Shown one piece after another: positions 29,826 through 37,564 of a DNA stretch of 60,447 nt. The notes under the pieces are model-generated. The model was not told the DNA's origin. It did no database searches and saw nothing but the letters and a program-made list of their open reading frames with translations. Numbering within the stretch: position 1 is the first letter of the stretch; every line of letters begins with the position of its first letter. The stretch is from positions 1 to 60,447 of IMG/VR virus record IMGVR_UViG_3300031885_000015; one strand, given 5' to 3'. Source of the DNA: a virus. The translations under genes were made by a program, and so were the position numbers.

Positions 29826-30227
29826 TTGGGACCAGCAGATGGTGCTTGGGACATCGTTCAGCTAGGCTGTACCCTCACCTTCGATGCTGCTCACTACCTG
29901 CCTCGCCATGAGGGCAAGTGCAAGAGGCTACATGGGCACACCTACCAGGTGGAGGCTGTTGTGCAAGGGCACGTAGATCCCAATACTGGGATGGTAGTAG
30001 ATTTCAGCATTCTGGAGGGAGCTCTCCTTAGAGTCACCGAAAAGCTGGATCACAACTGTCTGAACGAGGTGCTGAGTTTTACTCCCACAGCGGAGAACAT
30101 TGCTGCATGGATATTTCTCCAGCTACAGGCAGAGCTAGGTTCAGCAGGTACTGGGGGACAGGAGCTAGCTCTCGTGTCTGTGACGGTACACGAAACCCCG
30201 ACCTCCTTTGCAAAGGTAGGTGCCTAG
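29826..30227 (+). CDS. queD: QueD, 6-carboxytetrahydropterin synthase
   Basis: A 133-residue T-fold enzyme. FDAAHYL gives the first zinc His, KCKRLHGHTYQVEA holds the catalytic Cys and the HGH zinc ligands, VVDFSILEGAL and LDHNCLNE carry the acidic partners, and PTAENIAAWI and VTVHET bind the pterin. It converts dihydroneopterin triphosphate to 6-carboxytetrahydropterin. TTG start with AAGGAGG 11 nt upstream. Directly followed by QueE. Confidence 0.93.
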   Translation: MGPADGAWDIVQLGCTLTFDAAHYLPRHEGKCKRLHGHTYQVEAVVQGHVDPNTGMVVDFSILEGALLRVTEKLDHNCLNEVLSFTPTAENIAAWIFLQLQAELGSAGTGGQELALVSVTVHETPTSFAKVGA

Positions 30228-30228
30228 G

Positions 30229-30999
30229 ATGTTGGAAGGCCCCTCAGGGAGTAGCTGCGTAAAAGATAAGAGGTACCCAATCAATGAGATCTTTGGGCCA
30301 ACTATCCAGGGAGAAGGACCGCTTCTCGGAACTCCCAGCGTATTTCTTCGTACCCAGGGCTGCGATAACAGCTGTGTGTGGTGTGATACACCTTACGCAC
30401 TGAAGGGTCCCTGCCGGCACATGACTGCTATGGAGATCCTGACAGAGCTCCAGCTCAAGGCAGAGGGATGCAAGTGGGTGACTATCACGGGAGGAAACCC
30501 ACTAATCCATGACCTCTTTGAGCTAATTAGACCACTCCATGGACTAGGTTTCCTCGTAGGCGTGGAGACTCAAGGTACAGTGTTCAGGGAGTGGGTTAGA
30601 GACTGCGACAGCATAGTTCTGTCTCCTAAGCCTCCTAGCTCAGGAAACGCTACTGATTCCTTTGTCGTGCAAAGGTTCGTCTCGCAGCTTCATCGGACAG
30701 GGTTATCTATCAAGCCTTGGTCCCTCAAGGTCGTGGTGTTCGACGACATCGACTACGCGTATGCCAAGCAACTCCACTCTCTCTTTCCCTTCAATCTACT
30801 GCATCTCCAGGTAGGGAACAATATACCTCTAGATGCAGTCATGGACTACCCTGCCTACATAAGCCGTTTACGGTGGCTTGCAGAGAAGGTTCTGGCTGAT
30901 CATCAGAAAGACGGTTTCTTCTGGCACGACGTAGATCAGGGTGTGAAGGTGCTACCTCAGCTGCACCTGCTCCTATACGGCCCTAAGAGAGGTGTATAG
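30229..30999 (+). CDS. queE: QueE, 7-carboxy-7-deazaguanine synthase (radical SAM)
   Basis: A 256-residue radical SAM enzyme: EIFGPTIQGEGPLLG opening, the [4Fe-4S] motif CDNSCVWCD (about residues 45-53, C-x3-C-x2-C), the ITGGNPL SAM-binding strand and KPP later. It contracts 6-carboxytetrahydropterin to 7-carboxy-7-deazaguanine (CDG). ATG 30229 has AGGTAGG upstream (GTG 30220 is an alternative), 1 nt after QueD. Confidence 0.93.
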   Translation: MLEGPSGSSCVKDKRYPINEIFGPTIQGEGPLLGTPSVFLRTQGCDNSCVWCDTPYALKGPCRHMTAMEILTELQLKAEGCKWVTITGGNPLIHDLFELIRPLHGLGFLVGVETQGTVFREWVRDCDSIVLSPKPPSSGNATDSFVVQRFVSQLHRTGLSIKPWSLKVVVFDDIDYAYAKQLHSLFPFNLLHLQVGNNIPLDAVMDYPAYISRLRWLAEKVLADHQKDGFFWHDVDQGVKVLPQLHLLLYGPKRGV

Positions 31000-31001
31000 C
31001 A

Positions 31002-31850
31002 GTGGCTCTTCTCGTAGAAGTGATGGGCCCGCCTGTGAGGGTAGAAGACTTGCCGGATGTTCAGAACATCGCTGGGGACTTTAAATTCCCTGTAAAGGCG
31101 GGTATTTCAGGGGTAGTGATGCCTATCCTGGTAAAGACGCAGCAAGGTACCCTTTTCAGCACGGTTGCTAAGGTAGACATGCACGTTCTGCTACCTAGCA
31201 GACTCCGGGGAGTAAACATGAGTAGGCTACCCATCATATTGAGTGAGATGAACCAGAATAGCTGGGTGGTCGATAACCTACGGGACACTCTGAGGAAGAT
31301 GCTGATAAGACTTGAGTCTACTACTGCACGGATGCAGCTTCGATTTCCCTACTTTTATAATAAGCAATCTCCGTGCAGTCCAAACGTAGGAGTAGCTCAT
31401 GCAGACATCATCTTCGACGCTAGTCTTGTAGATACTCAGCCAGAGAGCTACTGCTTTATACTCACAGTAAAGGTACCGGTTATCACGCTGTGCCCTTGCT
31501 CCAAGGAAATTAGCTCTAACTCGGCTCATAATCAGCGAGCTGTAGTGACCATAACGGTAGCCTACGACGAATTTGTCTGGATTGAGGAGCTCATTCGCTA
31601 CGCTGAGGTGAGTAGCAGTGCAGCACCCTTTCCTGTCCTTAAGAGATGGGACGAGAAACGAGTAACGGAGGACGCCTACAAGAACCCTAAGTTCACGGAG
31701 GACGTCGCTCGAGGAGTCGCGTCTCTGCTGACAGCAGATACGAGGATTGCTGGCTTTCACGTAACAGTACGGAGCCAGGAAAGTATCCATCAGTACGACG
31801 CTGTTGCGGAGGTGAGTGGTGGCCTCCGGAACCTATGGACGCGTAGCTAG
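31002..31850 (+). CDS. folE2: FolE2, type IB GTP cyclohydrolase
   Basis: A 282-residue protein matching GCYH-IB: LPDVQNIAG...VKAGISGV, SRLRGVNMSRL, the Glu-rich catalytic stretch, VPVITLCPCSKEIS with the catalytic Cys, and SSNSAHNQRAVVTI. It opens GTP to dihydroneopterin triphosphate, the first step towards 7-deazaguanines. Type IB enzymes work without strict zinc dependence. GTG start 2 nt after the QueE stop. Confidence 0.92.
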   Translation: MALLVEVMGPPVRVEDLPDVQNIAGDFKFPVKAGISGVVMPILVKTQQGTLFSTVAKVDMHVLLPSRLRGVNMSRLPIILSEMNQNSWVVDNLRDTLRKMLIRLESTTARMQLRFPYFYNKQSPCSPNVGVAHADIIFDASLVDTQPESYCFILTVKVPVITLCPCSKEISSNSAHNQRAVVTITVAYDEFVWIEELIRYAEVSSSAAPFPVLKRWDEKRVTEDAYKNPKFTEDVARGVASLLTADTRIAGFHVTVRSQESIHQYDAVAEVSGGLRNLWTRS

Positions 31851-31900
31851 TTAGCTTGGGAGAAGAGGGTGGGGTAGGTCACCCCAAGGAGGAGCTGGAC

Positions 31901-32332
31901 ATGAGGTGCCTCGTAGTTAGGACTCAGCTTGAGGGTGTTCACTGCTACATAGGTGCGCCCCCTGAGGTAGACTATCTTAGCCTTCCTCATCGACACGTGT
32001 TTCACATCGAAGTTGAGATCGAGGTATTCAAGGAGAACCGCGAACTGGAGCTCCTCTCAATAAAGGCAGATCTGACGCAGCACCTACGAGCTATCTTAGG
32101 TGGCCGATACCTACTTCCTAACGATCGGTCGAGCCATGCTCGAGTAAGATGTAAGTCGTGCTTGAGTAAGATGTTTTGCCTATCCCAAGATATTCACTCA
32201 AATAGCTGTGAGCACTTTGCCACCGCTATTCAGAGCTACCTTAAGATACGCTACCCATCTGAGCCTCCTCGCAGAGTAAGCGTGAGAGTGCTTGAGGATG
32301 GAGAAAACGGCTGTTACTTAAGAGAGGTGTAA
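31901..32332 (+). CDS. QueD-like T-fold protein, candidate deazaguanine tailoring enzyme
   Basis: A 143-residue protein; ATG with AAGGAGGAG upstream. It aligns in layout with QueD: PHRHVFHIEVEIEV in place of HGHTYQVEA, an acidic LSIKADLTQHL helix, SCEHFATAIQSYL in place of PTAENIAAWI, and VSVRVLEDGENG in place of VTVHET. QueD's catalytic Cys-x3-HGH is not kept, and a Cys cluster (CKSCLSKMFC) is added. I infer a T-fold paralogue with a new reaction, for example processing of CDG; no experiment is known to me for this protein. Confidence 0.6.
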   Translation: MRCLVVRTQLEGVHCYIGAPPEVDYLSLPHRHVFHIEVEIEVFKENRELELLSIKADLTQHLRAILGGRYLLPNDRSSHARVRCKSCLSKMFCLSQDIHSNSCEHFATAIQSYLKIRYPSEPPRRVSVRVLEDGENGCYLREV

Positions 32333-32335
32333 CCG

Positions 32336-32761
32336 ATGCCAGATGAACGTCACCAAAGCGAGCTAGGTTCAGGGACCTCCCAAGTTCTGAGTAGCCATTT
32401 ATCTCCCTATGCTGCTGATGTGTTGGCATTTGATCTGGAGCATGGACTACTATCAATCCATGAGCCGACGATTGAGAACATTAGCTACCTCCTCACTGCG
32501 ATGACAGGAGAGGTAGGGGAGCTAGCAAACGTCGTGAAGAAGATCTGGCGCGATGGAGAGAGCCCGAAGCTCTGGCGACAGTTTGATGAGGAGCTTGTCG
32601 ATATCCTGATCTACTACATTGAACTACTCGTAGCAGCTAGAGTGGACATAGACAAGGCATGGAGAGTCAAGGAGCAAGTCCTAAAGGAGCGGTGGCTGCA
32701 GCGAGGACCCTACAAGATTACCAGTCGGGGCTTGCAAACCTCGAGGGGGGAACTTCCATGA
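32336..32761 (+). CDS. MazG-like nucleotide pyrophosphohydrolase
   Basis: A 141-residue all-alpha protein: LLTAMTGEVGELANVVKKIWR (E-x2-E metal site) and FDEELVDILIYYIELLVAARVD (E-E-x2-D). It would hydrolyse non-canonical or host nucleoside triphosphates, or ppGpp, as suggested for other phage MazG proteins. Overlaps the kinase start by ATGA. Confidence 0.85.
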   Translation: MPDERHQSELGSGTSQVLSSHLSPYAADVLAFDLEHGLLSIHEPTIENISYLLTAMTGEVGELANVVKKIWRDGESPKLWRQFDEELVDILIYYIELLVAARVDIDKAWRVKEQVLKERWLQRGPYKITSRGLQTSRGELP

Positions 32762-33351
32762 TCGTGATTGTAGCAGGACCAGATCGAAGTGGCAAGACTA
32801 CCCTCATGCATATCCTAGGAGAGATATTTGGAGTTACTCCTCGTAAAGCTTGTCGCATCGCAGACGATGGAGAGACGATAGCTGCTGTGGCCACCTACCT
32901 TCGAGAAGAGACAGAGCTTTACAAGCCTCTTTATAGTGGCCTGCGTAAGCCTCTGCAGCCCCCTACCCTCTGGGACCGCTGGTGGTATCCTGACGACGTT
33001 ATATACCGAGCGGTGGCGGAGGGCAGAGAATCGATCCTGCTCCCGTACGCGCAGGTAATTGAGCAGCAGCTTAAGAGACTCCAAACTGTTTTTCTCCACG
33101 TGACAGCTAGCCAAGAAACGCTGGAGGCAAGGTATAAGCAGCTAGGGGAAGACGACTACCTTCCTAAGAGCAAGCTACCAGCGCTACTTGAGGCCTACGA
33201 GAGATTCTTCCTGGACACTAAGCTTCCTGCATATCGCATCTGCACCGATGATTCTATCTCCTCGAAGCTCACTACGGTGACACGCGCATGCCGTTACGTA
33301 CGGCAGGCTACGCTGCAGTTCTTGTCGGAGGAAGGAGTGGCCACTGAATGA
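32758..33351 (+). CDS. deoxynucleoside monophosphate kinase (thymidylate kinase-like)
   Basis: A 197-residue P-loop kinase: IVIVAGPDRSGKTTLM is Walker A, LWDRWWYPDD resembles the DR(Y/W) substrate-binding motif, and a LID-like arginine region follows. It raises dNMPs to dNDPs for replication. ATG 32758 with GAGGGGGG upstream, overlapping mazG; it overlaps the next gene by 4 nt. Confidence 0.8.
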   Translation: MIVIVAGPDRSGKTTLMHILGEIFGVTPRKACRIADDGETIAAVATYLREETELYKPLYSGLRKPLQPPTLWDRWWYPDDVIYRAVAEGRESILLPYAQVIEQQLKRLQTVFLHVTASQETLEARYKQLGEDDYLPKSKLPALLEAYERFFLDTKLPAYRICTDDSISSKLTTVTRACRYVRQATLQFLSEEGVATE

Positions 33352-34160
33352 AAATCGCTACGATCGTGCCGACTGCATACCTCTCTCTGACCAAGGAAGA
33401 CACGTACTTTATGGCCCTGGCTCACTTGGTGGGGAAGGACCAAGCATACACGGATTTCTTTAGGCGTCAGAGTGAAGCAGGAAAGTACGTGATCATGGAC
33501 AACGGGGCTGCTGAGGGGCAGCAGCAACCAATCGAGGTTCTACTAGAGCGAGCAGCCTTGATCAAGGCTACGGAGCTTATCCTGCCAGATGTGCTCCTAA
33601 ATTGCAGGGAGACCTTGAGGCTAGGGTACTCTGCGCTAGAGGAGATAGACAAGTGTGGTGTCCGAATCGCCCTAATGGCTGTTCCACAAGGAGAGTCCTT
33701 CAGCGAGTGGATTAGGTGTGCCCGAGGGATGACAAGCTGGCCCGTTCAAGTCATCGGCATATCGAAGTTTCTCACTAAGCAGCTAGGTTCAGGCGCCCGG
33801 CTACAAGCCTTGACGATGCTAGAGACTTGCTACGAGGAAAAGGATGTTCACCTACTTGGCTGCCACCAGGATCCTCGAGAAGTGCATACCATATCAGTGT
33901 TCTACCCTTCAGGTGGCCACGTCAACAAACTAAGGGTTCGAGGAGTTGACAGTGCTATCGCATATGCGTATGCAAGGGTAAACCAGCCACTAAGGCCTGC
34001 ACACCTCCGTCCCGAGATGGAGATAGATTTCTCAGACACCAAGACCGATTCCAAATACCTCAAGTGGCAGATCCGAGCTTGGAAGTACTACTGTCGGCAT
34101 GGAGAGGAGCCCCCTCAAGTACCGCTTGCCGTCTTTCCTCCCTTCTCTATTTTTAAGTAA
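33348..34160 (+). CDS. dpdA: DpdA-like guanine transglycosylase
   Basis: A 270-residue TIM-barrel protein related to tRNA-guanine transglycosylases: MDNGAAEG (about residues 49-56, candidate catalytic Asp), LILPDVLLN (second Asp), LMAVPQGES, VIGISKFLT, VHLLGCHQ and GVDSAIAYAYA. Phage DpdA proteins exchange guanine in DNA for 7-deazaguanines. Its place after FolE2/QueD/QueE fits that role, and the zinc site of tRNA enzymes is not obvious. Overlaps the kinase by ATGA. A tRNA substrate is a less likely alternative. Confidence 0.75.
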   Translation: MKIATIVPTAYLSLTKEDTYFMALAHLVGKDQAYTDFFRRQSEAGKYVIMDNGAAEGQQQPIEVLLERAALIKATELILPDVLLNCRETLRLGYSALEEIDKCGVRIALMAVPQGESFSEWIRCARGMTSWPVQVIGISKFLTKQLGSGARLQALTMLETCYEEKDVHLLGCHQDPREVHTISVFYPSGGHVNKLRVRGVDSAIAYAYARVNQPLRPAHLRPEMEIDFSDTKTDSKYLKWQIRAWKYYCRHGEEPPQVPLAVFPPFSIFK

Positions 34161-36637: not shown

Positions 36638-36873
36638 AGCGCCTAAAGGAGCTCGCGCTCCTTAGCGTCGTTGTGGTAATCACAGTAGGCATCATGTCGG
36701 GTGGCGCCATAGCTGCTGCTCGGCTGATCCTGTGGGGCTGGTCCGGCGTCCTCCTGGCTGTGCTGGTCGTAATGAGCACTGGGGTCTTTACGGCGTTCGT
36801 CAAGGCTGCCCTCTGTAGGGTCTTCTTCTCTAGGAAGGAGGCTCCTCGGCGTGCCCTCCGAGGAGGTGAGTAG
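36634..36873 (+). CDS. small two-span membrane protein
   Basis: A 79-residue protein, GTG overlapping the polymerase stop. Two hydrophobic helices (about 8-30 and 34-60) and a basic tail (FFSRKEAPRRALRG). Function unknown. Confidence 0.6.
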   Translation: MKRLKELALLSVVVVITVGIMSGGAIAAARLILWGWSGVLLAVLVVMSTGVFTAFVKAALCRVFFSRKEAPRRALRGGE

Positions 36874-36874
36874 A

Positions 36875-37564
36875 GTGAAGATTGATATCCTAACGAAGGA
36901 CGAGATCCTTCTCCACAATCAGCAGCATGGGACACTTCGTTGGGTGCCTGTCGAGAGTGCACAGCTAGTCCCTTCAGAAGAGGTACATCACTCCCTTGCA
37001 GATGGTGGCTATGTGGGCTGCTCTCAGCTACATCCTGAAGTAATAATTGCCATTCGACGGCTTGGGGAGGTCATCGCGTACGTCTGTCGCTTCTGTAGGG
37101 AGGGGTGGACCCCAGGAGATCCATGTAACACTGGGTGGATGTGTCCTACGTGTCAGGCTACCTATAAGAAGGGTTCGAGAGCCATGAGAGTACTCGTATG
37201 TGGTAGTCGAACCTTCAACGGCAGTAGAAGGATAGGTATAGAGTTGTCGAAGCTTCCTCCTAACACAGTAATTATCCATGGAGGCTGCTCAGGAGCTGAT
37301 AGTATAGCTGGAGCATGGGCTCATCAGCTTGGGCTCGAGGCTATTGTTTTTCACCCAGGATGGGCTCAATATGGAGGAAAGGCAGGTCCTAAGAGAAATC
37401 GTCGTATGCTTGAAGAAGGCAGACCTGATCTGGTTCTAGCCTTCCTCGAAGGTACCACTAAGACCCCAGGAACTGCACACATGATAGACCTTGCAGTTCA
37501 AGCAGGTGTCAAGGTAACTGTGTTTGCAGGGCAGCCTGAGGCCAATAAAGGAGGTAGACCATGA
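36875..37564 (+). CDS. zinc-ribbon plus DUF2493 (SLOG-like) protein
   Basis: A 229-residue protein. The first 100 residues carry CRFC...CNTG-MCPTC, a zinc ribbon. The rest is a DUF2493/SLOG Rossmann domain: RVLVCGSRTF, IIHGGCSGADSIAGAWA, FHPGWAQYGGKAGPKRNRRML. SLOG domains bind nucleotides or nucleotide-derived signals. GTG after GAGGAGGTG; ends overlapping nrdJ by ATGA. A nucleotide-sensing or processing role beside the reductase is inference. Confidence 0.8.
   Translation: MKIDILTKDEILLHNQQHGTLRWVPVESAQLVPSEEVHHSLADGGYVGCSQLHPEVIIAIRRLGEVIAYVCRFCREGWTPGDPCNTGWMCPTCQATYKKGSRAMRVLVCGSRTFNGSRRIGIELSKLPPNTVIIHGGCSGADSIAGAWAHQLGLEAIVFHPGWAQYGGKAGPKRNRRMLEEGRPDLVLAFLEGTTKTPGTAHMIDLAVQAGVKVTVFAGQPEANKGGRP

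Follow-up and report, generated by a model that had tools for sequence, protein, structure and literature searches.

PHROG 17812, a QueD-like T-fold family that takes the place of QueC in phage 7-deazaguanine cassettes, and its probable role in CDG decarboxylation

The virus record analysed here, a stretch of 60,447 bases that we call the window, carries at 31901..32332 (plus strand) a gene for a QueD-like T-fold protein of 143 amino acids, a member of the functionally unassigned family PHROG 17812. This family takes the place of QueC in the 7-deazaguanine pathway of the phages that encode it. The protein is probably a zinc T-fold enzyme that acts on 7-carboxy-7-deazaguanine (CDG), and the most likely reaction is decarboxylation to 7-deazaguanine for insertion by DpdA; we therefore describe it as a proposed CDG-tailoring enzyme and a putative, DpdL-like CDG decarboxylase.

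The open reading frame is a genuine gene. Its ATG at 31901 lies 8 nt downstream of a strong Shine–Dalgarno sequence (AAGGAGG, 31886..31892, plus strand), and it is packed tightly between the end of FolE2 at 31850 and the start of a MazG-like gene at 32336. The cassette runs on one strand and opens with a helix-turn-helix (HTH) gene (29554), followed by QueD (29826..30227; PF01242, E 1.5e-36; TIGR03367 above cut-off), QueE, the radical SAM CDG synthase (30220..30999; TIGR03365, 222.9 bits against a cut-off of 206.1), and FolE2, GTP cyclohydrolase IB (31002..31850; PF02649, E 3.2e-71; NF010200 above cut-off). Beyond the 143-aa gene lie a MazG-like pyrophosphohydrolase (32336..32761; PHROG 229, E 1.5e-5; PF03819 below cut-off), a P-loop nucleotide kinase-like protein (32659..33351; PHROG 761, E 1.9e-8), a DpdA-like DNA transglycosylase (33348..34160) and a DNA-polymerase-like open reading frame. 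Downstream of the polymerase, a SLOG-type protein (YAcAr, PF10686, E 6.6e-14) is encoded at 36851-37564. A megablast search with the cassette found no match among named phages. The QueD of the cassette retains intact C-x3-HGH, DH and E motifs, and since a genuine QueD is thus present, the 143-aa protein is not the QueD of this cassette.

The DpdA-like protein (270 aa) has no match to tRNA-guanine transglycosylase (TGT) in Pfam or the PDB by sequence, and it was only the structure model that revealed one. The AlphaFold2 model is confident (pLDDT 93.5), its top structural matches are all TGTs (E 5.5e-7, Z 17.6), and among its relatives D51, D81 and D201 are invariant and Q114 is near-invariant. 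We take these three aspartates to correspond to the catalytic residues D102, D156 and D280 of TGT; in this neighbour of the 143-aa gene, a TGT fold is accompanied by conservation of the catalytic aspartates.

The initial annotation allowed that the 143-aa protein might prove to have a fold unrelated to T-fold enzymes, but structure prediction places it among them, nearest to QueD. The AlphaFold2 model (mean pLDDT 84, pTM 0.75) has a T-fold core predicted with confidence, for which the best Foldseek matches are PTPS and QueD (2dj6, E 1.9e-4; Escherichia coli QueD 4ntk, E 3.2e-4). VIA-align returns Z scores of 13.1 and 12.3 to PTPS and QueD, and lower scores to DHNA, QueF-like and GTP cyclohydrolase I structures, which have the fold alone in common with the 143-aa protein. 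Profile–profile comparison agrees, with a probability of 96.7% (E 4e-10) against phage QueDs versus 6.8% against FolE and less than 1% against QueE and DpdA. When a profile of 70 relatives was compared by sequence with the whole PDB, PTPS and QueD entries took ranks 1-5, at weak E values of 0.045 to 0.1. A structure search of BFVD returned QueDs and larger proteins that contain a similar domain, and no new function. No Pfam or NCBIfam model matches the protein, ATP-binding families included.

The relationship to QueD (6-carboxytetrahydropterin synthase) is one of a shared pocket and a lost chemistry. In a conservation alignment of 70 diverse sequences, window protein included, 12 residues are invariant: H14, L26, H30, R31, H32, R47, E50, S102, C103, E104, E132 and D133. 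The layout seen at first reading is borne out, in that the HxH, SCE and VLED motifs align with HGH, PTAE and VHET of QueD. The predicted zinc ligands H14 (31940..31942, plus strand like all codons given here; H16 of QueD), H30 and H32 match those of QueD and form the three-histidine H-x(n)-HxH site, with H30-R31-H32 at 31988..31996. Also retained are the Glu that anchors the substrate in QueD (E132; E132-D133 at 32294..32299) and, within S102-C103-E104 (32204..32212), the Glu of the QueD PT-x-E motif. In contrast, the catalytic Cys that stands four residues before HxH in QueD, whose absence had already been proposed, is replaced by L26 (31976..31978) in 70/70 sequences. The catalytic Asp-His pair is likewise gone, with no such pair conserved between residues 56 and 102, and the protein does not match TIGR03367 or PF01242. 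A QueD function for the 143-aa protein is therefore ruled out, by the loss of its catalytic residues together with the genuine QueD alongside. Relative to QueD, the family gains invariant R31, R47, S102, C103 and D133; R47 lies in a (D)R-(D/E)-x-E motif that ends at E50 (32039..32050). On sequence grounds, this pattern would suit a pocket that binds a guanine-like base with QueD chemistry lost.

A gained cluster of Cys residues had also been put forward as a functional argument, and this part of the initial annotation does not stand. C84, C87 and C93 lie in an insert at about residues 68-101 (32102..32203), where model confidence is low to about residue 100, and this disordered insert is unique to the window protein. 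The C84 and C87 columns are gaps in the other 69 sequences; the C93 column is a gap in 64 and holds Cys in the window protein only. The cluster was accordingly rejected as a metal site. C103, in the SCE motif, is the only Cys of the window protein that is kept across the family.

PHROG 17812 is large and sharply bounded. The window protein matches its profile HMM (E 7.7e-14), as do 70/70 aligned members, and there are no differences that would set the protein apart from the family. By tblastn, members turn up in named phages that infect a wide range of hosts, among them Cellulophaga phage phiST and Pseudomonas phage PA5oct, and the clear matches are annotated as hypothetical; the phiST cassette is nearly the same as that of the window (QueD, QueE, FolE, MazG, family gene, kinase and DpdA-like gene). 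Two contig scans, run with sub-alignments of the family alignment, each found at least 590 related viral stretches. The link to deazaguanine genes holds throughout, with QueD, QueE, FolE or DpdA in the flanks of 238/243 family loci, and the other five are short stretches; the prospect of a conserved family with no such link can be set aside. One of those five belongs to Faecalibacterium phage Roos, in which a queuine tRNA-ribosyltransferase-like gene adjoins the family member. Neither QueD nor QueE has a match in the 54-kb Roos record, and this phage may depend on its host for CDG. The Roos family member also lies beside a ParB-like gene.

Fusions and additional neighbours are found in some cassettes. 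Family members are joined to a P-loop kinase domain that resembles the stand-alone kinase of the window (loci L115, L116 and L117), or are fused behind a PIG-L-like deacetylase domain (L002, L112, L113 and L118). In L290:10658-12136 and L294:10869-11810, the family member is followed by a domain that by eye resembles nucleoside 2-deoxyribosyltransferase (CGSTRFK ... VVNVDGYVG) and has no Pfam match; these two fusions are relevant to the open question, raised in PMC6884629, of undetected deoxyribosyltransferases. Some cassettes have a PAPS reductase-like gene next to the family gene or close to it (L002:7663-8500 and L009:3846-4379).

The proposal that the gene is a candidate for a missing tailoring step started from the lack of QueC in this cassette, and it gains from both the window and an independent sample. 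No QueC (PF06508) was found within the 60,447 bases, and the 143-aa protein itself does not match this model. The control sample comprised 50 viral records gathered by QueE alone, 8 with the family and 42 without. A clear QueC, defined as a score of at least 40 bits, is present in 0/8 of the former versus 32/42 of the latter (Fisher p = 8e-5, or 0.001 if one weak 27-bit QueC match is counted), where the counts are of records rather than independent origins and many records are fragments. Among 49 family-bearing records, QueE was matched in 42 and QueD in 38, while QueC rose above the Pfam cut-off in three, with a best score of 32.8 bits and hence no clear QueC. The same replacement is visible at the level of single cassettes: phage ACP17 has the family gene between FolE and QueE, whereas in its relative IME-SM1 a QueC-like gene (30.8 bits) fills this slot and the family is missing from the cassette. 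R5C and Pan1, which were checked among the phages with a QueE most similar to the ACP17 protein, each carry a strong QueC and lack the family. A possible exception is Vibrio phage D479, where a family member coexists with a distant gene annotated as QueC-like (32.8 bits); this score and that of IME-SM1 mean that weak QueC matches cannot all be dismissed. In addition, a clear QueC is missing from 10/42 family-less records, some of them fragments, so that some cassettes do without both.

Exclusion with QueC indicates that the QueC step is replaced and says nothing on which reaction replaces it. QueC acts at the same pathway step and, in the comparison of ACP17 with IME-SM1, occupies the same cassette region, but it is a Rossmann-type, ATP-dependent enzyme that differs from the T-fold family in both fold and chemistry (PMC13329287). 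Its substrate is CDG, which it converts using ATP in two consecutive reactions (PMC13329287). Since QueC acts on CDG, the simplest replacement of QueC en route to DpdA would be another enzyme that uses CDG, and a QueD pocket that keeps the zinc site and anchor without the residues that cleave the side chain, and that has acquired arginines, fits a CDG decarboxylase. We envisage that FolE2, QueD and QueE would convert GTP to CDG, and that free CDG would be bound in the old QueD pocket of the 143-aa protein, a catalytic, zinc-binding enzyme descended from a QueD-type ancestor. The guanine-like edge of CDG may be held by E132 and the S102-C103 stretch, with zinc on H14, H30 and H32 and with the carboxylate close to invariant R31, R47 or both. 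The enzyme would then release 7-deazaguanine and CO2, and DpdA would exchange guanine in phage DNA for 7-deazaguanine.

CDG might instead be used without being decarboxylated, in some other tailoring step that leads to a 7-deazaguanine not yet described. Both the exclusion of QueC and the position of the gene fit any enzyme that uses CDG, the new invariant residues C103, R31, R47 and E50 are unexplained by known chemistry, and the PIG-L-like, kinase-like and deoxyribosyltransferase-like fusions hint at more than one-step chemistry. However, a core of about 115 amino acids with a zinc site and no recognizable NADPH-, ATP- or SAM-binding domain suits a lyase best, and dDG has reportedly been found in phage DNA, so we regard another tailoring step as unlikely. 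It is considerably less likely still that the protein is a carrier that hands unchanged CDG to DpdA, giving dCDG in DNA. FolE, QueD and QueE alone would be expected to yield CDG, and insertion of CDG has been suggested for cases where QueC is missing (Hutinet et al. 2019, PMC6884629), but the QueC-less cassettes that have no family member argue against a carrier, and the invariant zinc site suggests catalysis.

Two further readings are highly improbable. The protein could replace QueC with an unrelated enzyme that still makes ADG or preQ0, as the exclusion of QueC and the positional swap between ACP17 and IME-SM1 would allow, but QueC needs ATP twice (PMC13329287), and a small T-fold protein with no match to an ATP-binding family in Pfam or NCBIfam is poorly suited to this task. 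Loss of the QueD triad is also what would be expected of a QueD paralogue that has lost catalysis and instead assists or regulates QueD or FolE. T-fold enzymes act as multimers, which makes a partner role conceivable, yet neither the zinc ligands nor the residues of the pocket vary across very diverse phages, 11/49 family records (some of them fragments) have no QueD match, and Roos carries the family gene beside its DpdA-like gene with no QueD match; a regulator would, moreover, leave the exclusion of QueC unexplained.

Decarboxylation of CDG is thus the reading that we prefer, and enzymes of this kind probably already have a name. DpdL is said to have been predicted as a 7-carboxy-7-deazaguanine decarboxylase in phages carrying dDG. 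The 143-aa family is probably DpdL, to which we liken it by gene content and by the predicted reaction. A phage with DpdL would be expected to encode FolE2, QueD, QueE and a DpdA-like protein and to lack QueC, which is the gene content of the window; the association with FolE, QueD, QueE and DpdA and the lack of QueC hold family-wide as well. None of the library models that matched is named DpdL, and a full-text search of the available literature returned nothing on the enzyme. There is a small chance that the family is separate from DpdL; it would then be a distinct T-fold enzyme that uses CDG, and its phages would carry an undescribed 7-deazaguanine.

Family members also occur in bacteria. 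In Paractinoplanes ferrugineus (NZ_BOMM01000052, L236:7093-13888), a chromosomal cluster holds a DpdA-like gene, a family gene that overlaps it by 4 bases, FolE, QueD and QueE, together with an HhH-GPD glycosylase, a nucleotidyl transferase, a UDP-sugar dehydrogenase and a methyltransferase. No phage genes were found among those scanned in the cluster, QueC has no match in the 9.4-Mb genome, and these genes may form a deazaguanine island of the bacterium or a biosynthetic cluster. Streptomyces specialis (L237:7497-8447) has a DpdA-like gene and a family member read in two overlapping frames, which is either broken or affected by a sequencing error. A further candidate for a second chromosomal case (genome G253) was rejected, since genes for terminase and portal proteins mark it as a prophage. 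If the family is not DpdL, the P. ferrugineus cluster would be an instance of this chemistry in use by a bacterium and not only by phages.

With these results PHROG 17812, a large and sharply defined family, receives a likely function and an active-site signature (H14, HRH, R47-x2-E50, SCE and ED). Taken together with the rule that the family occurs where a clear QueC is absent, the signature predicts which phages have a QueC-free 7-deazaguanine in their DNA. If the proposed reaction is correct, the pocket of QueD would have found a second use two steps further along its own pathway.
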